A model generated the notes under the pieces. That model worked only from the letters and a program-made list of their open reading frames with translations, made no database searches and had not been told where the DNA came from. A program made the translations under genes and the position numbers. Below, in pieces: positions 47,557 to 58,064 of a stretch of DNA of 64,000 nt. Numbering within the stretch: the stretch's first letter is position 1; every line of letters begins with the position of its first letter. Origin of the DNA: Niabella ginsenosidivorans (GTDB lineage Bacteria; Bacteroidota; Bacteroidia; Chitinophagales; Chitinophagaceae); contig NZ_CP015772.1 of assembly GCF_001654455.1 (NCBI RefSeq), forward strand, positions 744,001 through 808,000, written 5' to 3'.

Positions 47557-48744
47557 TTACACTTTATACATCCTGTTGGCGGAATTGATATACTCCAGCG
47601 GGTCAAATGTTTTGTCGAATGATTCCTGTAATTCCTTCATCTTGATCTCAAGATCCTTGATCCGGCTTCCCAGCTGAGGATCTGCCCTGTATTTGTCAAA
47701 AAGGTCTTTGTATTTCAGCAGGTTCTGGCTGATGCGGAAAGTGACCTGCCCAAAGCGTTGTTTTAAAGACTGCACATCGTTCATCTGGATATATGCAGTC
47801 TGGCGCCAGTCTTTGGGGTTTTTGATTTTTTCATTGGCTACGAACTGCGCGGCAGCGTCCCTTAACTTGGTCAGGTACTGGTATCTTTTATCAGCATCAT
47901 TCTCTTTTGAAAAATTACTTTCAAAGTCAGCCTGTGCCACTTTTATAATTGCCAGGTTTTCTTTCAGAGATTTTTCATATTTGCCCTGCAGGTCTTTCAA
48001 TTCTGTGGTAATGGATTCCCACTCATTCTCGATCTGGTTATTGTCATAATTGAACTGGCTTATCTTCATAGTAAGCGTAAGCATTTCCTGGCTTTGCTCC
48101 TTTAATGCCTTTTCTTTTTTACCGATATTATCAATATAGGTAGTCATGCTGGTGAACAGGGCCGAGGTAATAGGTCCTGTAACGGGCACGCCTTTACTAA
48201 AACCGCTTGCAAAGTTGAGGAGGTTATTGGTTACATTTAAAACCGGGCTTTCTGCTTTTTTTTCTTTTACAAAAGCCGTAAAGGAATTGTACCATTTGGT
48301 AAAACCGTCATAATTCATCGGGTTTCCTGTTTCGCTCAGAGAATTAAAAAACGCCTTGGTGGAATTAAACAACATAAGAGGTTTGATTTCCCGGTCCATT
48401 GAAACAAGGTTGACCATTGCAGACTGGTAATTGGCCTGGAAGATGTTCAGCTCATTTTGTTCAATAGCCTTTTGCTTTTCTTCAACCGCCTGTACACGCT
48501 GTACCAGTTTATCCGCCTTTTCCCTGACGTCTTTCGACTCATTGATCGATTTGTCCAGAGCAGACATCCGCTGATCCAGTTGGGTAACCGTGGAATCGAA
48601 TGATTTTGTTTTCAGCGCAAAATTCTTCTGGATATCGTCCAGCACTTTGTCTTTTAATGATTGGACCTGTACGGTTTGCGTATCCTGCGCCTGTATTGCC
48701 ATCATTGAGCACAGCATTCCCGTCAAAAAAAACAATTGTTTCAT
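47557..48744 (-). CDS. Exported coiled-coil protein, function unknown
   Basis: About 395 residues. Signal peptide MKQLFFLTGMLCSMMAIQAQ (start at 48744 chosen for this; the frame is open to 48825). The mature part is almost entirely helical with heptad-like patterns (LDDIQKNFALKTKSFDSTV, KADKLVQRVQAVEEKQKAIE, ELKDLQGKYEKSLKENLA). A glycine-containing segment near the middle (FASGFSKGVPVTGPITSA) may be a hinge. I recognise no family. It is convergent with PfpI and located beside the signalling module. Confidence 0.65.
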   Translation of the reverse strand: MKQLFFLTGMLCSMMAIQAQDTQTVQVQSLKDKVLDDIQKNFALKTKSFDSTVTQLDQRMSALDKSINESKDVREKADKLVQRVQAVEEKQKAIEQNELNIFQANYQSAMVNLVSMDREIKPLMLFNSTKAFFNSLSETGNPMNYDGFTKWYNSFTAFVKEKKAESPVLNVTNNLLNFASGFSKGVPVTGPITSALFTSMTTYIDNIGKKEKALKEQSQEMLTLTMKISQFNYDNNQIENEWESITTELKDLQGKYEKSLKENLAIIKVAQADFESNFSKENDADKRYQYLTKLRDAAAQFVANEKIKNPKDWRQTAYIQMNDVQSLKQRFGQVTFRISQNLLKYKDLFDKYRADPQLGSRIKDLEIKMKELQESFDKTFDPLEYINSANRMYKV

Positions 48745-48932
48745 CTGTATAATTAAGATTTTTTTGAAAGACCTCAGTTGTAACCGGTTCCTGATCCTCA
48801 TAAAAGGATCTGCCCATAAAAACACAAATAACCCGCCAGTTTTAGGTGTTTTTAAGAAAAAATAATCAAAATAAACCAGGCTGATCTGAAAATCAATCGT
48901 TTATATAAAGGTAGGAAAAAAGCAGCATTTTG

Positions 48933-49403
48933 TTAAGACAGTAATGACTGTCTTAATATAAATTCCATTTGCCGGTTGTTTTCTTCCAGCTTTTCGGCAA
49001 TTTCCTTTTTGGTCTTATTGAGGGTATACAGTTCCAGCCCCTCCAGAATGGTTTGTCTCAGCTGGTCTTCCTGCCAGGGCTTTTGGATGTATTTGAACAC
49101 CTGCCCTTTATTGATGGCATCAATGACTGCCGCTATATCTGCATAGCCTGTCAGCAGCATTCTTACAGGTTCAGGATGGTCTTTAATAATGGATTCCAGA
49201 AATTCAATGCCTGTAGTTTCAGGCATCCGCTGATCTGTAATGATTAGATGAATTTCCTGTTCATTTAAAATCTTCAGGCCTTCTGCTACATTCGTAGCTG
49301 TAAAGACTTTGAAGTCTCTTCTGAAACAGGCTTTAAAGGAATTCAGATTATGAATTTCGTCATCAACATACAAAACATTGTAATATTGAAGAGTTTTTGA
49401 CAT
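48933..49403 (-). CDS. Single-domain response regulator with helical tail
   Basis: About 156 residues. The receiver domain has NVLYVDDEIHNLNSF, the phospho-acceptor in IHLIITDQRMPETTGIEFL and MLLTGYADIAAV with KYIQKPWQ. The last ~30 residues form a helix (KKEIAEKLEENNRQMEFILR), no DNA-binding domain. The receiver is clearly similar to the N-terminus of the hybrid at 53523. Start 49403 is preferred over 49463; the promoter at 49451-49458 would give a 40-nt leader. Divergent from the E1-like gene. Confidence 0.88.
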   Translation of the reverse strand: MSKTLQYYNVLYVDDEIHNLNSFKACFRRDFKVFTATNVAEGLKILNEQEIHLIITDQRMPETTGIEFLESIIKDHPEPVRMLLTGYADIAAVIDAINKGQVFKYIQKPWQEDQLRQTILEGLELYTLNKTKKEIAEKLEENNRQMEFILRQSLLS

Positions 49404-49429
49404 AAATGTAATTGGAATTAATATTTCAG

Positions 49430-49437
49430 TAAGTTTG
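49430..49437 (+). promoter_or_regulatory. Candidate -7 element for the E1-like operon
   Basis: TAAGTTTG, exact consensus, 31 bp before ATG 49469. The nearest TTG (49412-49414) is spaced only 15 bp away. Confidence 0.5.
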
Positions 49438-49450
49438 TAAGAAACAAAGT

Positions 49451-49458
49451 CAAAAATA
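49451..49458 (-). promoter_or_regulatory. Candidate -7 element for the response regulator gene
   Basis: On the minus strand TATTTTTG, exact consensus, about 47 bp before the ATG at 49403. It is interleaved with the plus-strand element at 49430-49437. Confidence 0.5.
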
Positions 49459-49468
49459 CTCATTATTT

Positions 49469-50605
49469 ATGAGAAAAGATGCAACTGCTGATAATTTCGA
49501 AAACATAACGGCAATTCAATCATTACAGCACCCCTATCGCCCGGTTTTTTTGAGACTGGAGAACCCGGATGATAAAAACACCTATGATTTTATAAAAGAA
49601 AATATGGCGGGGGTTGAAGTTATAGATACTATTTTACGGCAGCTTAAGGAATTAATAAAAATAAGGAACGCCGGTATCCGGACAGAAGAAGCGCTCAACC
49701 GGTTATTAAAAGAGCAGTCAGAGCAGCTCATTCTGGAAGAATATGGTGTATGGGTTTTTTATCCCTGGTCAAAAAAATTAGTTCATTTACTTGATAAAGA
49801 AGATTTTATAGAGGTCCGAACCAACCGGAACCTGTATAAAATTACCCCGGAAGAGCGGCAGGTGCTGCGATCAAAGACCATCGGGGTTATTGGTTTGTCT
49901 GTTGGGCAGTCAGTGGCCTTTATGCTGGCATTGGAAAGGGTATGCGGGGCATTGCGGCTGGCCGATTTTGATACGATAGATCTAAGCAATATGAACAGGC
50001 TTGCCGTTGGTGTACAGGATATTGGTGTTAATAAAGCCATTCTGGCCGCCCGTAAAATAGCAGAGCTGGATCCTTATATTGACATAACTTGCTATACGGA
50101 TGGGCTAACAGACGGGAATATAGATGATTTTTTTACAGGAGGTCAGCGGCTGGATCTGCTGGTTGAGGAATGCGATAGCCTGCCGGTCAAGATCAAAAGC
50201 AGGATAAAGGCCCGCAGCCTGAAGATTCCGGTAATAATGGATACGAATGATAAGGGGCTGCTGGATGTAGAGCGGTTTGATCTTGAGCCTGACCGCCCGG
50301 TTTTGCATGGCAGAATGAAATTGTTTGAAGGGCTGACCGATGAAGCCGCGGTTGCAAAACTGGATCAGTTAACGCCCCGGGAGCGTTTTGACACAACCAT
50401 TGATATTGTGGGAGCAGAAAATATTTCAGAAAGAATGAAGCAATCATTAAAAGAGATTGGCATTAGCATTACGGGCTGGCCGCAATTAGGGTCTGCCGTT
50501 GGCCTTGGAGGCGCCATGGTAACGGATGTCAGCAGAAGGATCCTGTTGGGACAATACAACGCATCCGGCCGCTATCATGTTGATTTTTATGACCTGATAA
50601 ATTAG
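49469..50605 (+). CDS. E1-like (ThiF/HesA/MoeB) family protein, Rv1355c type
   Basis: 378 residues. A 100-residue N-terminal extension (PYRPVFLRLENPDDKNTYDF) is followed by the ThiF Rossmann fold: IGVIGLSVGQSVAFMLAL (nucleotide loop), LRLADFDTIDLSNMNRLA (magnesium/ATP region), LVEECDSLPVKIKSRIKARS and VIMDTNDKGLLDVERFD. No CxxC zinc pairs or obvious catalytic Cys at the usual E1 position. Family members adenylate a carboxylate, either of a small-molecule or of a protein tag. The next gene starts 8 bp downstream, pointing to an operon with the acyltransferase-like gene. Confidence 0.8.
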   Translation: MRKDATADNFENITAIQSLQHPYRPVFLRLENPDDKNTYDFIKENMAGVEVIDTILRQLKELIKIRNAGIRTEEALNRLLKEQSEQLILEEYGVWVFYPWSKKLVHLLDKEDFIEVRTNRNLYKITPEERQVLRSKTIGVIGLSVGQSVAFMLALERVCGALRLADFDTIDLSNMNRLAVGVQDIGVNKAILAARKIAELDPYIDITCYTDGLTDGNIDDFFTGGQRLDLLVEECDSLPVKIKSRIKARSLKIPVIMDTNDKGLLDVERFDLEPDRPVLHGRMKLFEGLTDEAAVAKLDQLTPRERFDTTIDIVGAENISERMKQSLKEIGISITGWPQLGSAVGLGGAMVTDVSRRILLGQYNASGRYHVDFYDLIN

Positions 50606-50612
50606 TTTCCCA

Positions 50613-51338
50613 TTGATAAGCAAGATACAGATAAGAGTGTTCAGGGCCGTTGATGATCCGGAAGCCTGTGAAAAATTCATTTACGGGCATCGCAAGATAC
50701 TGGAAATCTATTATGGTATTATTAAGATCACTTCCGACAATAACGCCTGGGTAAAAGACCCGAATACCGTGGTGATCGTTGCGGAAGACCCGGAAACAAA
50801 AAAAGTTTATGGAGGCGCAAGAGTGCAGGTATTTGATGGCCAGACACCCTTACCTATAGACAGCGCGGTGAGCAAGTATGATCAGTCGGTAACCGATTAT
50901 ATACAGAATGAATATAAGAGAGGAGGCACCTGCGAACTGTGCGGGGTTTGGAATTCAAAAGAGATTGCCGGCATGGGTGTAGGCAGCCATATACTTACCA
51001 AAGTGGCTGTTGCCATAACCAGCCAGCTGCATGTAAAAAGCATATTTGTGCTTTGTGCCCCCGGCACAGTAAGGATTGCTAAAAAGCATGGATTTGAGGT
51101 TGTTACTTTTTTAGGGAATAACGGGTTATTCTATTATCCGAAAGATGATTTTGTTGCTACCGTAATGGAATTTAAAGATGTTTTTGATTTTCAGAATGTT
51201 CAGGAACCCGAATTGAGCAAGATCCTTCTGCTGAGAAATAACCCTGATATTGTTGTAAATGAAGCTGGGCCAAAAGGAACCTTTGAGGTCATCTATCTTA
51301 TGAATGTAGCTAACTGGGAAAAACTACCTGCAAAATAA
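50613..51338 (+). CDS. GNAT-fold (N-acyltransferase-like) protein
   Basis: 241 residues resembling the N-acyl amino-acid synthase/GNAT superfamily: VVIVAEDPETKKVYGGARVQV, CELCGVWNSKEIAGMGVGSH (CoA-loop GMGVGS), ILTKVAVAITSQLHVKSIFV, GTVRIAKKHGFEVVTFLG. The fold is the one also used by acyl-homoserine lactone synthases, but the substrate cannot be read. The start is a TTG at 50613, eight bases after the E1-like stop. The 7TMR-DISM kinase gene begins 24 bp after this one, in the same direction. Confidence 0.7.
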   Translation: MISKIQIRVFRAVDDPEACEKFIYGHRKILEIYYGIIKITSDNNAWVKDPNTVVIVAEDPETKKVYGGARVQVFDGQTPLPIDSAVSKYDQSVTDYIQNEYKRGGTCELCGVWNSKEIAGMGVGSHILTKVAVAITSQLHVKSIFVLCAPGTVRIAKKHGFEVVTFLGNNGLFYYPKDDFVATVMEFKDVFDFQNVQEPELSKILLLRNNPDIVVNEAGPKGTFEVIYLMNVANWEKLPAK

Positions 51339-51362
51339 TCAAAAAAATAAACAGAGGTAAAA

Positions 51363-53510
51363 GTGGCGGGCAGCACATATCATAGACATCTATTTCTATT
51401 ATGTCTTTATCTCATTGCCCTGGCTGGAAAGCTGTCAGCGCAGATAGCGCCAGGGCCGGATACTTCGGGAATTACTACCGTTTGGGATTTTGAGGTGTTT
51501 GAAGACAAAACCAATAGCTACCAGATTGACCAGGTTATAAACTCCGGCGGGTTGTTTAGGAAAAGCAACGGGAACAGCCTTCCGGTAGCCAATGCAACCT
51601 TCTGGCTTAAGATCAGATTAAAGAATTACCTGAAGCCCTGGCCGCTTTTTTTACAGGTGGAGAATCCATCGCTGCAGCGTGTATTTTTTTATTCAGCAGT
51701 ACAGGGGCGCGTCATTGATTCCATACACATGGGCAGGGAGTACCAGACAAAATATACGGTGGATGAGTTTGTAAATTTTACCTATAAGATCCCTTTTCCT
51801 GCCACTGATGCTACGGTGGTTTATATTAAGATCAAATCGGTATCCCAGATGCAGATCCCGATCCTGATCGGGTCAAAGGACCGCTTTTATGAAAAGGAAA
51901 ACCTGGCCAGTCTTTTTTTCGGGATCTATGCGGGCATTTTTGCAATAATGGTTTTATATCATGTGGTCATCAGCTTCAGTGTAAAAGATAAAAGCTATGT
52001 TTATTATGTATTTTTTATTTTCTTTGTCGGGCTTACGCAGGTTGTTCTAAAAGGATACGGGGCTGTTTATTTATGGCCTGATAACCGGTTTATATTAATG
52101 AACAGCACTGCGTTGAGTGGCTTTCTGTCCGGGGTTGCCACACTTGTCTTTACCCAGAATTTTTTGCATACCCGGCTCAATACGCCGCGGGGGCATAAAA
52201 TCATAAACGGGATCATTGTATGCTTCGTTATTGCAATGGGCATTTACTTTTTAGGAAATGAGTACCTGGCCTTTAATATCATTAATTTTCTTGCGCTTTC
52301 CGGTTCTATTATTGTGCTCATAATAGGGATGGCCGCTTATAAGAATAAAGTGCCTACCTCTTTTTATTTTTTGCTTGCTTTTTCTATTTTTTTAGGGGCT
52401 GTAGTGATCTATGTGCTGCGGTCGAACGGGTTTGTTGCTTATAACCTGCTAACGGCTAATATTCTTGAGATCGGTTCTTCTATTGAAATTGTGCTGCTTT
52501 CCCTGGCACTGGCAGATAAAATCAATATTTACCGGAAAAACCAGGAAATAGCCCGGAAAGAGGCGTTGCGGGTATCAACGGAAAATGAACGGTTGATCAA
52601 AGAGCAGAATATTATTCTTGAAAAAGAGGTCCGGAGCAGAACAGAAGAGCTGCAGTATGCCAATGAGGAGCTGCAGGAAGCCATGAACCAGATAAAGAAC
52701 ACCCAGGCAAAGCTGGTTGAAACGGAGAAAATGGCGTCGCTGGGCCAGCTTACGGCCGGTATTGCGCATGAGATCAATAATCCTATTAACTTTGTTACGT
52801 CTAACATCCGCCCCCTGGAGGCGGATGTGGCAGACCTGACTGAGGTCATTAAAATGTACGAAGGGCTTGATCTTTCTAAAGACATCAAGCCGCAGATCGA
52901 TCAGATTGAGCAATTCAAAAAAGATATCGACCTGAATTACCTGAACGAAGAGATTACTACTCTTTTATCAGGCATAAAAGAAGGGGCCAGCCGCACCTCC
53001 GAAATTGTAAGAGGGCTCAGGAGTTTTGCCCGTGTTGATGAGGCCAACTGGAAACATGTAAACATCAATGATGGCCTTGAGTCAACCATTCTGCTGGTTA
53101 AAAATTCATTCCCTAAAAACTTTGAGTTGATCAAACAACTGGGGGATATACCCAAGATTGAATGCGCCGCAGGCAGTATCAATCAGGTGTTTATGAATAT
53201 TATAACGAACGCGGTTCAGGCAATTAAAGAGGAACAGCAAAAAAGCAATAAAACCGGCCGCCTTGAAGTTACAACAGCTGTAGAGGATGCATTTGTGGTC
53301 ATAAAGATCAGAGATAATGGCCCGGGCATGCCAGAGGAAGTGAAAAGCAAGATCTTTGATCCGTTTTTTACTACCAAGGATGTGGGAGAGGGAACCGGTC
53401 TTGGTCTGTCGATTGTACAGGGGATCATTGAAAAACATAATGGCTTCATTGAAGTAGTAACCGGGTTAGGAGAAGGAACTACCTTTATAATCGGGCTGCC
53501 GGTCCGTTAA
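51363..53510 (+). CDS. 7TMR-DISM sensor histidine kinase
   Basis: 715 residues. Signal peptide (to about LSAQ), then a periplasmic 7TMR-DISMED2 carbohydrate-binding-like domain (residues ~30-175: FWLKIRLKNYLKPWPLFLQ), a seven-helix 7TMR-DISM membrane unit (~180-385), a coiled coil (EKEVRSRTEELQYANEELQE), the dimerisation helix with the phosphoacceptor in ASLGQLTAGIAHEINNPINF (~His 469), and the HATPase domain (IITNAVQAIKEE, RDNGPGMPEEV, GEGTGLGLSIVQG). GTG start. It senses an unknown external ligand and phosphorylates partner receivers. Confidence 0.92.
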   Translation: MAGSTYHRHLFLLCLYLIALAGKLSAQIAPGPDTSGITTVWDFEVFEDKTNSYQIDQVINSGGLFRKSNGNSLPVANATFWLKIRLKNYLKPWPLFLQVENPSLQRVFFYSAVQGRVIDSIHMGREYQTKYTVDEFVNFTYKIPFPATDATVVYIKIKSVSQMQIPILIGSKDRFYEKENLASLFFGIYAGIFAIMVLYHVVISFSVKDKSYVYYVFFIFFVGLTQVVLKGYGAVYLWPDNRFILMNSTALSGFLSGVATLVFTQNFLHTRLNTPRGHKIINGIIVCFVIAMGIYFLGNEYLAFNIINFLALSGSIIVLIIGMAAYKNKVPTSFYFLLAFSIFLGAVVIYVLRSNGFVAYNLLTANILEIGSSIEIVLLSLALADKINIYRKNQEIARKEALRVSTENERLIKEQNIILEKEVRSRTEELQYANEELQEAMNQIKNTQAKLVETEKMASLGQLTAGIAHEINNPINFVTSNIRPLEADVADLTEVIKMYEGLDLSKDIKPQIDQIEQFKKDIDLNYLNEEITTLLSGIKEGASRTSEIVRGLRSFARVDEANWKHVNINDGLESTILLVKNSFPKNFELIKQLGDIPKIECAAGSINQVFMNIITNAVQAIKEEQQKSNKTGRLEVTTAVEDAFVVIKIRDNGPGMPEEVKSKIFDPFFTTKDVGEGTGLGLSIVQGIIEKHNGFIEVVTGLGEGTTFIIGLPVR

Positions 53511-53522
53511 ATCAGTTTGGTT

Positions 53523-54617
53523 ATGTCAGCAATTAATGTGCTTTATGTTGATGATGAACAGCAGAACCTGAATTCGTTCATGGCTGCGTTCAGAAGAAAA
53601 TGCAGGGTTTTTTTGGCCACCTCTGTATTGGCCGCCTTTGAAATCCTGCAGAAGGAAGAGATCCATGTACTGATCTCTGACCAGCGCATGCCTGAAATAA
53701 CCGGTGTTGAATTTTTAAAACAGGCAAAAGAAAAATATCCGGATATTCCCCGTATCCTCTTAACAGGCTATACAGATATTGAGGTTTTGGCGGATGCTGT
53801 TAACCAGGGCGATATTTACCGTTATATTACAAAACCCTGGAATGAACTGGAACTGCTGAATGGTATTCTGAATGCATATGATCAATACAGGGCGGGCAAA
53901 GCATTAAAAGAAAAAGTAGAAGAGCTGCAAAAGACCAATGACGGGCTCAACCGGTTTGTATACAGTATATCTCATGAGCTAAGGGCTCCGATAGCCTCGG
54001 CAAAAGGCATAATGGACCTGGTGAAGATGGAAGGCTTTTACGAGGAATCGGACGGGTACTGGAAACTGATGAATGCCTGCATACAAAAGCTGGACTATTA
54101 TGTGACCCAGACGGTACAGTTTTATAAGACGCTCCGGTTTAACGTGAGTTATGAACAGATCCGGTTTAAAGAAATGGTCAACACGCTGATCAGCCTGTAC
54201 CGCACCTCGGCTAATGCAAAAGACATCCATTTTAACATAGCCATAAATGAGCAGCAACCGTTTTGGGGAGATGCTTTCAGGCTGGAAATTATCATTGCCA
54301 ACCTTTTATCCAATGCCATCAAATGCCAGCGTGCAGATGAGCCGGATAAATGGGTTGAAGTGAGCATTACTACCACCCCGCAGGAGGCTTTGATCACTGT
54401 TGCAGATAATGGTATTGGAATAGCCGGAGAAGATCTTGGAAGGATCTTTGATCAGTTCTTCAAAGGTGCAAATCTGGATGGCCTGGGTCTTGGTTTGTAT
54501 ATTCTCAAGGAATCGCTGGATAAGCTAAACGGCACTATTGATGTGCAGTCTGGCCTGGGTAAAGGAAGCGTTTTTAAAGTAACGGTTCCTAATAAAGAGT
54601 CTGCTATGAATACCTGA
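53523..54617 (+). CDS. Receiver-histidine kinase hybrid
   Basis: About 364 residues. An N-terminal receiver (INVLYVDDEQQNLNSF, phospho-Asp in HVLISDQRMPEITGVEF, LLTGYTDIEVLAD, KPWNELELL) is followed by a HisKA helix with SISHELRAPIASAKGIMDLV and an HATPase domain (ANLLSNAIKCQRADEPD, TVADNGIGIAGEDLG, LGLGLYILKES). It is soluble with no membrane segment. It lies 12 bp after the DISM kinase and may accept phosphate from it. The TTG at 53517 is an alternative start. Confidence 0.93.
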   Translation: MSAINVLYVDDEQQNLNSFMAAFRRKCRVFLATSVLAAFEILQKEEIHVLISDQRMPEITGVEFLKQAKEKYPDIPRILLTGYTDIEVLADAVNQGDIYRYITKPWNELELLNGILNAYDQYRAGKALKEKVEELQKTNDGLNRFVYSISHELRAPIASAKGIMDLVKMEGFYEESDGYWKLMNACIQKLDYYVTQTVQFYKTLRFNVSYEQIRFKEMVNTLISLYRTSANAKDIHFNIAINEQQPFWGDAFRLEIIIANLLSNAIKCQRADEPDKWVEVSITTTPQEALITVADNGIGIAGEDLGRIFDQFFKGANLDGLGLGLYILKESLDKLNGTIDVQSGLGKGSVFKVTVPNKESAMNT

Positions 54618-54665
54618 AATAATGCGGCCTGTTCCGTTCATTTACAATTCTAAAAATTGAATCTT

Positions 54666-56810
54666 ATGAAATTGCATTTTATTCCATTTATTGCTATCTT
54701 AATCATTACATCCTGTAATATGCCAAACAGTTCTACCAACCAGCCAGGCACAGCCGATACGGACAACCCTCTATTAAAAGAAAGTACATTGCCTTATCAG
54801 ACGATCCCTTTTGATAAGATCAAAGAAAAGGATTTTGTTCCTGCTTTTGAGCAGGGAATGAAGGAAGAAATGATGGCCATAGATAGTATTGCCAATAACC
54901 CCGAGGCTCCTACATTTGAGAACACCTTTGTAGCGCTGGAAAAATCAGGGCAGCTATTGCACAGGGCCAGCCATGCATTTAATGCACTGACAAGCGCCAA
55001 TACCAACGACCAGTTGCAAAAGATACAGGAGGAAATGGCGCCAAGGCTTTCTGCTCATTCTGATTCCATTTTTATGAATGCAAGGCTGTTCCATAGGGTG
55101 GATACCCTTTATAAGCAACTGGATCAGCTGTCGCTTGACCCTGAATCAAAACGGCTGATAACGTACTACCACCAGCAGTTTATGATGAGCGGCGCCGCGC
55201 TTCCGGATTCAAGCAAGGACAAGCTCAGGAAATTAAATGAAGAAGAAGCCACTTTAAGCACCCGGTTCAGCAATCAGCTACTGGCAGCCGCCAAACAGGG
55301 CGCGCTGGTGGTTGATTCCAAAGACCAGCTTGCAGGGCTCACTGATGCAGAAACAGAAGCGGCAGCAGAAGCCGGGAAAACAGGCGGGCATGAAGGAAAA
55401 TACGTGCTTCCCCTGACGAATACAACACAGCAGCCCGCATTGCAATCCCTTAAAAACAGGGAGGTACGCAGCCGCCTTTTTGAAGCTTCCTGGACAAGAG
55501 CTGAAAAAGGCGATTCCAATGATACCCGTAAAAATATCCTGCGCATTGCACAGATCCGTAAGGAAAAAGCGCTGCTTTTGGGGTTTCCCAATTATGCTGC
55601 CTGGAAATTACAGGACCAGATGGCAAAGACACCTGCTGCGGTAACTGCTTTTTTAAACAAACTGGTGCCCCCTGCTCTTGCAAAAGCAGCTTCCGAAGCG
55701 CAGGATATCAAAACAATGAAATTACAGGAAAAAGACACAACAGCATTAGAACCTTACGATTGGGATTTTTACGCGGAGAAAGTGCGCAAGGCAAAATATG
55801 ACCTGGATGAAGCACAGGTAAAACCTTATTTTGTACTGGATAGTGTTCTGAAAAATGGTGTTTTCTTTGCCGCTAACCAGTTGTATGGGATCACTTTTAA
55901 AGAGCGTACGGATATTCCGGTTTACCAGGAAGATGTAAAGGTGTATGAAGTGTTTGACAAAGACGGTACCCCGATGGCCTTGTTTTATACTGATTATTTC
56001 AAACGGGATAATAAAAGCGGTGGCGCCTGGATGGATAATTTGGTAACACAATCGAAGCTGCTGAACACCAAACCGGTCATTGTAAATGTTTGCAACTTTC
56101 CAAAACCTGTAAAGGGGCAACCGGCACTGCTGAGTTTTGATGATGTTACCACCATGTTCCATGAATTTGGTCATGCTTTGCACGGGCTGTTTGCCAGCCA
56201 GAAGTATCCTTCTTTATCCGGTACCAGTGTGTCAAGAGATTTTGTGGAAATGCCGTCCCAGTTCAATGAGCACTGGGCGCTGGATTCAGCGGTGCTTAAA
56301 AATTATGCAAAAGATTATAAGACCGGGAAACCAATTCCCCAGGAACTGGTAGATAAAATTAAAAATGCCGCTACGTTTAACCAGGGCTATGCCATGACAG
56401 AGCTGCTGGCTGCTGCAGAACTGGATATGCAATGGCATTTGCTGGGCGCCAGGGACAGCACGGTAGCGGATGCAGATGCCTTTGAGCAAAAAGCCCTTGA
56501 GAAAACAGGTACGGCTGTTTCTTATGTACCGCCGAGATACCGGTCTTCTTATTTCCTGCATATCTGGGCTAACGGCTATTCCGCCGGGTATTATGCGTAC
56601 AGCTGGGCTGAAATGCTGGATCATGATGCTTTTGCATGGTTTAAAGAGAACGGGGGGCTCAAAAGGGAAAACGGTCAGCGTTTCAGGGATATGATCTTAT
56701 CAAAAGGTAACTCAGAAGACCTTGCAACCCTTTACAGGGCATTCAGAGGCAAAGAGCCAAGTATTACCCCGTTGCTGGAGAACAGGGGGCTGATTCCACC
56801 GAAGAAATAA
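54666..56810 (+). CDS. M3 family oligopeptidase lipoprotein (Dcp/OpdA type)
   Basis: A zinc metallopeptidase of about 714 residues. The N-terminus has a lipoprotein signal (IAILIITSCNMPNSS), so it is membrane-anchored, probably in the periplasm. The zincin motif is TMFHEFGHALHGLFASQ (near residue 497), with the third ligand glutamate some 25 residues later (VEMPSQFNEHW). Family-typical ends are RYRSSYFLHIWANGYSAGYY and LATLYRAFRGKEPSI. Cleaves short peptides. Start taken at ATG 54666; TTG 54657 is in frame. Confidence 0.92.
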   Translation: MKLHFIPFIAILIITSCNMPNSSTNQPGTADTDNPLLKESTLPYQTIPFDKIKEKDFVPAFEQGMKEEMMAIDSIANNPEAPTFENTFVALEKSGQLLHRASHAFNALTSANTNDQLQKIQEEMAPRLSAHSDSIFMNARLFHRVDTLYKQLDQLSLDPESKRLITYYHQQFMMSGAALPDSSKDKLRKLNEEEATLSTRFSNQLLAAAKQGALVVDSKDQLAGLTDAETEAAAEAGKTGGHEGKYVLPLTNTTQQPALQSLKNREVRSRLFEASWTRAEKGDSNDTRKNILRIAQIRKEKALLLGFPNYAAWKLQDQMAKTPAAVTAFLNKLVPPALAKAASEAQDIKTMKLQEKDTTALEPYDWDFYAEKVRKAKYDLDEAQVKPYFVLDSVLKNGVFFAANQLYGITFKERTDIPVYQEDVKVYEVFDKDGTPMALFYTDYFKRDNKSGGAWMDNLVTQSKLLNTKPVIVNVCNFPKPVKGQPALLSFDDVTTMFHEFGHALHGLFASQKYPSLSGTSVSRDFVEMPSQFNEHWALDSAVLKNYAKDYKTGKPIPQELVDKIKNAATFNQGYAMTELLAAAELDMQWHLLGARDSTVADADAFEQKALEKTGTAVSYVPPRYRSSYFLHIWANGYSAGYYAYSWAEMLDHDAFAWFKENGGLKRENGQRFRDMILSKGNSEDLATLYRAFRGKEPSITPLLENRGLIPPKK

Positions 56811-56850
56811 AGGTTTACAACCGGTTTTTTCATGGAAGAGTGGTTTCCGC

Positions 56851-56858
56851 TACCTTTG
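56851..56858 (+). promoter_or_regulatory. Candidate -7 element for the acyl-CoA dehydrogenase gene
   Basis: TACCTTTG, exact consensus, 22 bp before ATG 56880. It lies inside the open frame that extends upstream to 56832, which supports the internal start. Confidence 0.55.
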
Positions 56859-56879
56859 TTTTCTTTCAAATTTTTAGTT

Positions 56880-58064
56880 ATGTCAGTGAAAGCCGATTTG
56901 TTCCAAAGCCCGGATTATTTTAAAGTAGATGAGCTTTTAACAGAGGAGCATCTGATGATCCGTGATGCGGTGCGCTCCTATGTAAAAAAAGAAATCAGCC
57001 CCATTATTGAAAAGTATGCCCAGGAAGCCACGTTCCCGGAGCATATTGTAAAGCAACTGGGGGCATTGGGCTGCTTTGGGCCAACGGTTCCTGTGGCATA
57101 CGGTGGCGGCGGCTTAGACTATATCAGCTACGGGCTGATGATGCAGGAGCTGGAAAGGGGCGACAGTGGCATTCGTTCCACGGCATCTGTACAGGGCTCG
57201 CTGGTCATGTTTCCCATTTACGCTTACGGCAGTGAAGAACAAAAACAAAAATACCTTCCCAGGCTTGCCAGTGGCGAATGGCTGGGCTGCTTTGGTTTAA
57301 CAGAGCCGGATCATGGCAGTGACCCGTCCAGTATGGTAACGCATTTTGAGGAAGACGGGGATCATGTTATTTTAAATGGGGCTAAAATGTGGATCAGTAA
57401 TGCGCCCTTCTCCCAGGTCGCAGTAGTATGGGCAAAAAATGAGGAGGGTGTGGTGCAGGGCCTGATCGTAGAACGTGGAATGGAGGGATTTTCAACACCC
57501 ACCACACACGGTAAATGGAGCCTGAGGGCTTCTGCAACCGGGGAGCTGGTTTTTGATAACGTACGCGTTCCCAAACAAAACATCCTGCCAGGTGTTAAAG
57601 GAATGAAAGGCCCGTTAAGCTGTCTGAATAAGGCGCGTTATGGAATTGCATGGGGGGTGGTTGGCGCTGCTATGGATTGCTATGATACTGCATTGCGGTA
57701 TGCAAAAGAACGGACTCAGTTTGGGAAGCCCATTGCAGGATTTCAGCTGCAGCAGAAAAAGCTGGCAGAGATGATCACGGAAATTACCAAGGCGCAGCTG
57801 TTGAACTGGCGGCTGGGTGTGTTGATGAATGAAGGAAAAGCTACCCCGCAGCAGGTAAGCATGGCTAAAAGAAATTCCTGTTATATTGCCACGCAAATTT
57901 GCAGGGATGCGCGTCAGATGCTGGGCGGAATGGGCATTACAGGAGAGTATCCGGTAATGCGGCATATGATGAACCTGGAAAGTGTGATCACTTATGAAGG
58001 TACTCATGATGTGCACCTGCTGATAACCGGCATGGATGTTACCGGGATCAATGCTTTTAAATAA
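56880..58064 (+). CDS. Acyl-CoA dehydrogenase, glutaryl-CoA dehydrogenase type
   Basis: 394 residues, FAD-dependent. The pattern IRSTASVQGSLVMFPIYAYG, GCFGLTEPDHGSDPSSM, MLGGMGITGEYPVMRH and the catalytic glutamate in VITYEGTHDVHLLIT fits the glutaryl-CoA dehydrogenase subgroup. It would decarboxylate glutaryl-CoA to crotonyl-CoA in lysine/tryptophan degradation; other short acyl-CoAs are possible. Start MSVKADLFQSPDYF at 56880 agrees with the promoter at 56851. Confidence 0.9.
   Translation: MSVKADLFQSPDYFKVDELLTEEHLMIRDAVRSYVKKEISPIIEKYAQEATFPEHIVKQLGALGCFGPTVPVAYGGGGLDYISYGLMMQELERGDSGIRSTASVQGSLVMFPIYAYGSEEQKQKYLPRLASGEWLGCFGLTEPDHGSDPSSMVTHFEEDGDHVILNGAKMWISNAPFSQVAVVWAKNEEGVVQGLIVERGMEGFSTPTTHGKWSLRASATGELVFDNVRVPKQNILPGVKGMKGPLSCLNKARYGIAWGVVGAAMDCYDTALRYAKERTQFGKPIAGFQLQQKKLAEMITEITKAQLLNWRLGVLMNEGKATPQQVSMAKRNSCYIATQICRDARQMLGGMGITGEYPVMRHMMNLESVITYEGTHDVHLLITGMDVTGINAFK

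Follow-up and report, generated by a model that had tools for sequence, protein, structure and literature searches.

The closest described relatives of the system analysed here are the N-acyl oxazolone pathways. In mycobacteria, Rv1355c (TrzS) makes N-acyl tryptazolones together with the acyltransferase TrzA (PMC12856293). The TrzAS (Rv1356c-Rv1355c), TyzACB and OxzAB systems resemble the present locus in that an acyltransferase of FeeM/BjaI-like fold, predicted in our case, lies next to a ThiF-type cyclase; the same pair of structures, FeeM and BjaI, is cited for TyzA (PMC10404671). Our locus, from Niabella ginsenosidivorans, lies in a window of 64,000 nucleotides (positions 744001-808000 of one 5.63-Mb contig) and holds five genes, encoding a lone receiver, an E1-like (ThiF-type) enzyme, a GNAT-fold acyltransferase, a 7TMR-DISM sensor histidine kinase and a soluble receiver-kinase hybrid. 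This gene set had been named in a preliminary description and was borne out by Pfam and, for the GNAT protein, by the predicted structure. We regard it as rather probable that the cassette is a self-contained synthase-and-sensor system, in which the kinase would recognise the product of the two enzymes.

The tryptazolone authors call the physiological role of N-acyl oxazolones a major unresolved question, discuss stress or antimicrobial roles, and, citing structural likeness and the cyclic di-GMP genes nearby, put forward a role in signalling (PMC12856293). The present cassette has a tighter genetic link to signalling than that neighbourhood: whereas trzAS adjoins cyclic di-GMP genes, the cassette is linked to a membrane kinase and receivers.

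As reported for Ralstonia, phcS, phcR and phcQ encode a kinase, a soluble receiver-kinase and a lone receiver, neither receiver protein having a DNA-binding domain, and the Phc signal is a fatty acid methyl ester (PMC8578825, PMC6989110). Compared by layout alone, phcBSRQ and the cassette are alike in having a signal enzyme, a sensor kinase, a soluble receiver-kinase and a lone receiver that resembles the receiver of the hybrid. They differ in the enzymes, PhcB being a methyltransferase whereas the cassette uses the GNAT and E1-like proteins, with no methyltransferase found by Pfam among the five cassette proteins. They also differ in the sensor, which in the cassette is of the 7TMR-DISM type, and in the extra receiver present in many relatives. 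The stieleriacine, kyonggic acid and thalassotalic acid clusters combine an N-acyl amino acid synthase with ThiF and nitroreductase proteins, plus a methyltransferase in Stieleria; unlike in the cassette, no sensory kinase is described in the accessible part of that account (PMC12479983). Literature searches, which covered titles and the starts of abstracts among the records listed, with subscription literature mostly outside their scope, returned no published description of the whole cassette. The earlier statement that no described system has this composition stands to that extent, but fails for the enzyme pair, which is that of the OxzAB, TyzACB and TrzAS oxazolone systems. The enzyme chemistry, and synthase-plus-kinase signalling as a kind, are known; a link of these enzymes to a 7TMR-DISM kinase, with a second enzyme that can be exchanged, did not turn up in these searches.

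The E1-like and GNAT-fold enzymes

The best NCBIfam model for the window ThiF protein was NF005901 (Rv1355c family), the family shared with TrzS. The match spanned model positions 6-339 of 722 and its score, 454 bits, was just under the cut-off of 476, the oxidase half of the model being absent from the window protein; other ThiF models gave at most 60 bits. Fused relatives at L043, L058 and L059 scored 787-806 bits over nearly the full model. At L057 (9289-11367) the score was 504 bits and the match stopped at residue 478 of 693, so the flavin-oxidase half looks degenerate. Among the named relatives (the best 80 of 542 candidates, and hence biased toward similarity), the ThiF and flavin oxidase domains were fused in 46 and unfused in 34.

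We aligned the window ThiF protein with a fusion protein from Bacteroidota and with five actinobacterial proteins, of which three were Rv1355c-family fusions and two were ThiF proteins of Streptomyces. Window Asp236, in the ECD/VCD motif, and Gly142 and Gly146 of the glycine loop were identical in all six aligned proteins, and Asp166/168, Asn174/176, Arg177 and Lys189 were likewise invariant; the ATP-site Asp is thus common to the window protein and the actinobacterial Rv1355c-family proteins. TrzS carrying the D217A substitution shows deficient cyclase activity (PMC12856293), and window Asp236 would be the counterpart of TrzS Asp217. The AlphaFold2 model of the ThiF protein had a predicted local distance difference test (pLDDT) score of 87, and its top Foldseek match was AclA of Tenacibaculum discolor, with ThiF, MoeB and other E1 enzymes also matched. 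Our proposal is that the E1-like enzyme would act on an N-acyl amino acid, whose carboxylate it may activate and then cyclise or cap.

The GNAT protein was barely visible by sequence, with Acetyltransf_1 at only 0.014, under the Pfam cut-off, and sequence profiles at E 0.1 detected only 7 of 29 members of the GNAT family. Its AlphaFold2 model had a mean pLDDT of 92. In the Foldseek search FeeM ranked first (1.1e-7), followed by BjaI, RpaI and TofI, with LasI among the matches; rows 1-12 were all N-acyl amino acid or N-acyl-homoserine lactone (AHL) synthases, and drug acetyltransferases ranked below. Structural re-alignment gave Z 17.0 for FeeM (root-mean-square deviation 2.6, 179 aligned) and Z 15.9 for BjaI; as two small GNATs reached Z 16.2 and 15.8, ranking by Z cannot decide the matter by itself. 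When the GNAT alignment was searched as a profile against solved structures, nothing significant emerged (best 0.21), so the assignment rests on the predicted fold. The fold assignments of the preliminary description were upheld by these models, the GNAT being nearest FeeM and the ThiF model having an E1 fold. We propose that the GNAT protein is an N-acyl amino acid (autoinducer-type) synthase, as its modelled fold suggests.

The predicted synthase fold also recalls LuxI/LuxR systems through BjaI, RpaI, TofI and LasI. Membership of the LuxI family was rejected by sequence, though the fold agrees: no Autoind_synth match was found at E 0.1 in the 29 GNATs scanned. No LuxR-type domain was found by Pfam among the five cassette proteins, and detection in the cassette would instead be through the kinase.

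Related pairs occur on actinobacterial plasmids. On one Streptomyces plasmid, a 622-aa protein combines a ThiF domain, 50% identical to that of the window, with a GNAT-like region whose two matches were under cut-off (Acetyltransf_1 0.0041 and FeeM 0.036). Downstream of such a GNAT-ThiF fusion, at L161 (7122-10036), lies an overlapping beta-ketoacyl-ACP synthase III gene, a hint of dedicated acyl supply. On another Streptomyces plasmid, ThiF and GNAT genes overlap by 4 bases, but the GNAT is of a different type. On Rhodococcus plasmids (L163, L166 and L167), a GGDEF gene and a gene for a 259-260-aa protein adjoin an Rv1355c-family gene, echoing the trzAS neighbourhood; at L163 and L166 this protein matched the cassette GNAT profile weakly (2.9e-5 among 11 sequences).

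Linkage, enzyme exchange and covariation

The GNAT was present in 37 of 119 relatives. At a threshold of 148 bits for a full-length 7TM match, chosen after the match list was known, 34 of these 37 had a 7TMR-DISM match at or above that level, a few kb or less from the GNAT gene; in the remaining three (G001, G003 and G116) the DISM gene was cut by a contig end or split. Four of the 38 matches at this level lay away from the cassette (G031, G044, G079 and a second one in G116). The window genome held a single 7TMR-DISM_7TM match at E 1e-5, namely the cassette kinase. The association was also seen in a phylum sample of 296 evenly drawn Bacteroidota genomes (thresholds E 1e-30 for ThiF and E 1e-8 for GNAT), where 12 of 12 GNAT genes lay at most one gene from a DISM kinase and 11 of 11 ThiF genes lay beside a GNAT gene, one ThiF being cut by a contig end.

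We also assembled one locus per genus, chosen for the GNAT, from 28 genera; a 29th (L067) was dropped, its contig ending within the GNAT. These loci contained the GNAT in 28 cases (by selection), the DISM kinase in 28 (one cut at a contig end), the hybrid in 24, ThiF in 23, the lone receiver in 20 and an extra receiver in 12. The preliminary description had staked its reading on a gene order conserved beyond close relatives, and such conservation was found: among up to eight flanking genes, only 24 of the 378 locus pairs shared a homologue. In the 80 named loci (the best 80 of 542 candidates), with a neighbourhood of six genes, we counted the GNAT in 74, the DISM kinase in 73, the hybrid in 60, the lone receiver in 63 and all four in 50. 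Three of the seven named loci lacking a DISM kinase (L085, L126 and L136) stop at a contig edge. The usual order was ThiF-GNAT or GNAT-ThiF, then the DISM kinase, the hybrid and, in many cases, another lone receiver. The first receiver stood at one end or the other; counted over three partly overlapping locus sets, 102 of its 105 placements were antisense.

The second enzyme was exchanged in two genomes. In G017 (L048), a class I S-adenosylmethionine (SAM) methyltransferase (Methyltransf_25, 9.3e-20) lies between the GNAT and the DISM kinase, and in G238 (L157) the E1 slot holds an ICMT-family protein (1.5e-19, with PEMT second at 4e-16); GNAT and DISM kinase are retained in both. These methyltransferases are likened to PhcB by enzyme class only. 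In an N-acyl amino acid, adenylation by the E1-like enzyme and carboxyl methylation may be two different routes to neutralising the carboxylate. Two loci (L052 and L055) had neither ThiF nor any gene between GNAT and DISM kinase, and in L053 a contig end cuts the locus upstream of the GNAT.

Covariation was calculated for 86 loci with all four genes close together, after removal of identical GNATs and with 500 permutations; shared ancestry remains in this test. The kinase domain followed the hybrid closely (r 0.85, partial 0.78). The extracellular domain had a mean identity of 25% vs 55% for the kinase part, and its partial correlation was 0.23 with ThiF (0/500 permutations), 0.12 with the GNAT (3/500) and 0.02 with the hybrid (143/500), which it did not track. 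This pattern partly fits a division of labour in which the sensory domain would go with the enzymes and the kinase domain with the hybrid.

Proposed mechanism and competing explanations

Protein families, folds, gene order, distribution and the absence of an Acg-type desaturase from the window genome are directly established. Since the ThiF protein falls in the Rv1355c/TrzS family and the GNAT has a FeeM/AHL-synthase-like fold, the most likely product of the enzymes is an N-acyl amino acid whose carboxylate they then cyclise or cap. As judged from its fold, the GNAT would join an acyl group from acyl-CoA or acyl carrier protein (ACP) to an amino acid. The family and active-site residues of the E1-like enzyme suggest that it would adenylate the carboxylate of the N-acyl amino acid with ATP and bring about ring closure, yielding an oxazolone or a neutral product akin to one; in many relatives the fused flavin oxidase would desaturate this product, and in two genomes a methyltransferase would act in the slot. 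The product would then leave the cell and be sensed by the 7TMR-DISM kinase, as the constant linkage and the covariation pattern suggest, and the kinase would hand phosphate to the hybrid and the lone receiver, in keeping with the Phc-like anatomy. Pfam found no DNA-binding or transcription-factor domain in the lone receiver or the hybrid, so the receivers would act through protein contacts.

More tentatively, and with belief falling a little short of doubt, the cassette may represent a Bacteroidota quorum-sensing-like system based on N-acyl amino acids, with a constant GNAT and DISM receptor, a swappable carboxylate-capping second enzyme (E1 cyclase, E1-flavin oxidase fusion, carboxyl methyltransferase or other methyltransferase), chemically distinct, lineage-specific signals and a fast-evolving sensory domain. 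If true, oxazolone-type compounds would gain a role in signalling, 7TMR-DISM kinases would gain an autoinducer ligand and with it a natural class of ligands, and the Bacteroidota a further signal synthase-sensor pair. Because one receptor kinase accompanies related enzymes in many Bacteroidota genera, the role of oxazolones is directly testable in culturable genera that are non-pathogenic.

The synthase-and-sensor reading has to be set against several observations that speak against it. The cassette is sparse in the phylum sample (ThiF in 11 and GNAT in 12 of 296 genomes), and some DISM protein was present in 79 of the 119 relatives, other subtypes being common without the cassette. The flavin oxidase found in the oxazolone pathways and in many fused Bacteroidota relatives is absent from the window ThiF protein, and no NF047509 (Acg-type) match was found genome-wide at E 0.001; because the oxidase is missing, the window product is probably saturated or otherwise unlike the described oxazolones, and the characterised unsaturated oxazolones are unlikely to be that product. 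Oxazolones are readily hydrolysed and tryptazolones are more abundant inside cells (PMC12856293), which disfavours an extracellular signal of this kind; what acts outside the cell could thus be the N-acyl amino acid. The effects in the covariation test are small, and the division of labour is blurred because the strongest partial correlation of the GNAT is with the kinase domain (0.49) and because the 7TM part covaries alike with the GNAT (0.23), the hybrid (0.16, 0/500 permutations) and ThiF (0.15). The cassette GNAT profile missed the GNAT half of the Streptomyces fusion. A promoter scan gave no help either: the Bacteroidota-type motif TTG-N17-22-TAnnTTTG had 1 forward and 5 reverse matches in 81 divergent receiver/operon regions vs 1.4 and 2.1 in mononucleotide shuffles, hence no usable signal, and it was not found in the window. 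Finally, four named loci (L112, L116, L137 and L140) lack a DISM kinase although the neighbouring sequence is present, and so are real absences. L137 (8911-12006) has a ThiF-flavin oxidase fusion with a cassette-type GNAT, and L116 (1720-5150) such a fusion with a GNAT (PF00583) upstream, neither having a kinase nearby. In L112 (8129-11307) the fusion stands beside a 263-aa open reading frame that is acyltransferase-like by eye and without a Pfam match, and in L140 (1577-3823) neither GNAT nor kinase is adjacent. L112 belongs to Dyadobacter sp. CY347, a strain that also holds a complete cassette (L115).

The kinase-free pairs at L116 and L137 (and, by eye, L112) are what would be expected if the enzymes made an N-acyl amino acid or oxazolone that served a separate purpose, as an antibiotic or a membrane or stress lipid, while the DISM kinase sensed an unrelated cue, such as a glycan or envelope stress, and controlled production. 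The extracellular domains of DISM proteins are often thought to bind carbohydrates, which suits such a cue, and the stress and antimicrobial roles discussed for oxazolones (PMC12856293) suit such a product. We nevertheless judge this explanation unlikely, given that neither receiver protein has a transcription-factor domain detectable by Pfam, that the kinase subtype and the GNAT stayed together in loci of 28 genera, also when the second enzyme was swapped, and that the extracellular domain weakly tracks the enzymes and not the hybrid. The ThiF/E1 and GNAT folds both serve in protein modification, and weak PADLOC matches to E1-E2 systems were obtained (best 3.7e-9), so the two enzymes might modify the kinase, a receiver or another protein by acylation or a ubiquitin-like tag and so tune signalling. 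This is improbable: the Rv1355c family, that of a mycobacterial small-molecule cyclase, scored 454 bits whereas no other ThiF model exceeded 60, and a small-molecule product is favoured because a methyltransferase replaces the E1 and the nearest folds are FeeM and AHL synthases. The preliminary description had proposed an acylated signal or tag sensed by the kinase. The signal half of that proposal gains from the enzyme families, the fold, the gene order, the exchange in the E1 slot and the Phc-like layout, while the tag half was given up, as no ubiquitin-like, E2 or JAB-type Pfam family was found in the five proteins at E 0.1.

An E1-E2 defence or protein-tagging system was set aside on the family scores and because no E2, JAB or ubiquitin-like partner was found among the five proteins. 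Acylation of drugs is common among GNAT enzymes, and drug acetyltransferases were also among the Foldseek matches; together with the sparse spread in the phylum, this would suit a quenching or resistance operon that detects a foreign acylated signal or toxin and inactivates it. With N-acyl amino acid or AHL synthases filling the first twelve Foldseek rows and a biosynthetic precedent for the family, such a function is very improbable. That unrelated genes came together by chance has a practically negligible probability: both the ThiF-GNAT and the GNAT-ThiF permutations stay together in many genera, and conservation of the cassette in 28 genera with mostly unrelated flanks makes a chance neighbourhood untenable.

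Locus layout and neighbouring genes

Coordinates, strands and supporting matches of the five cassette genes (window positions)
Feature	Coordinates	Strand	Evidence
Lone receiver, ~156 aa	48933..49403	-	Pfam Response_reg 1.8e-20; NF053512 159 bits
ThiF/E1-type adenylating enzyme, Rv1355c (TrzS) family, cyclase half only	49469..50605	+	NF005901 454 bits; Pfam ThiF 9.2e-18
GNAT-fold acyltransferase, proposed N-acyl amino acid (autoinducer-type) synthase	50613..51338	+	AlphaFold2 pLDDT 92; Foldseek FeeM; VIA Z 17.0
7TMR-DISM sensor histidine kinase (DISMED2, seven transmembrane segments, HisKA, HATPase), proposed receptor	51363..53510	+	Pfam
Soluble receiver-histidine kinase hybrid (Rec-HisKA-HATPase)	53517..54617	+	Pfam Response_reg + HATPase

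All five genes were confirmed. The plus-strand operon spans 49469-54617 and the receiver gene, which has a short C-terminal tail, diverges from it in antisense orientation. The span of 49403-54617 given in the preliminary description takes in the operon but leaves out nearly all of the receiver gene, whose start codon is at position 49403. The receiver has a second possible start, an in-frame ATG at 49463; the start at 49403 is favoured because intact relatives are mostly 150-160 aa long. Of the gaps within the operon, previously put at 8, 24 and 12 bp, the second was exact and the others were close: we measured 7, 24 and 6 bp, the last becoming 12 should translation of the hybrid begin at the second Met. 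The earlier claim that the two receivers are homologous agrees with their common best NCBIfam model, NF053512 (159 bits for the lone receiver and 151 for that of the hybrid, both below the cut-off of 400). The kinase matched 7TMR-DISM_7TM at 4.7e-43, 7TMR-DISMED2 at 1e-16 and HATPase at 1.8e-24. An Rfam scan of the window found a tRNA only.

At three other Niabella loci (L060, L063 and L066) the cassette stands in broken frames, with the GNAT, ThiF or kinase in pieces, through either sequencing error or decay. On the same strand after the window operon (54657-58064) lie an M3-type peptidase-like gene and then an acyl-CoA dehydrogenase-like gene, both read by eye. Homologues of both are downstream of the operon in L032, L036, L039, L042, L044 and L047, and of the peptidase alone in L041 and L046; neither was noticed at the other loci compared. 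The extra receiver after the hybrid, common in relatives, is missing where these genes stand. On the other side, a 422-aa protein that is coiled-coil-like by eye (47557-48825, minus strand) adjoins the receiver gene, and several Niabella loci have open reading frames of 393-416 aa at the same place and orientation, alike by length alone.

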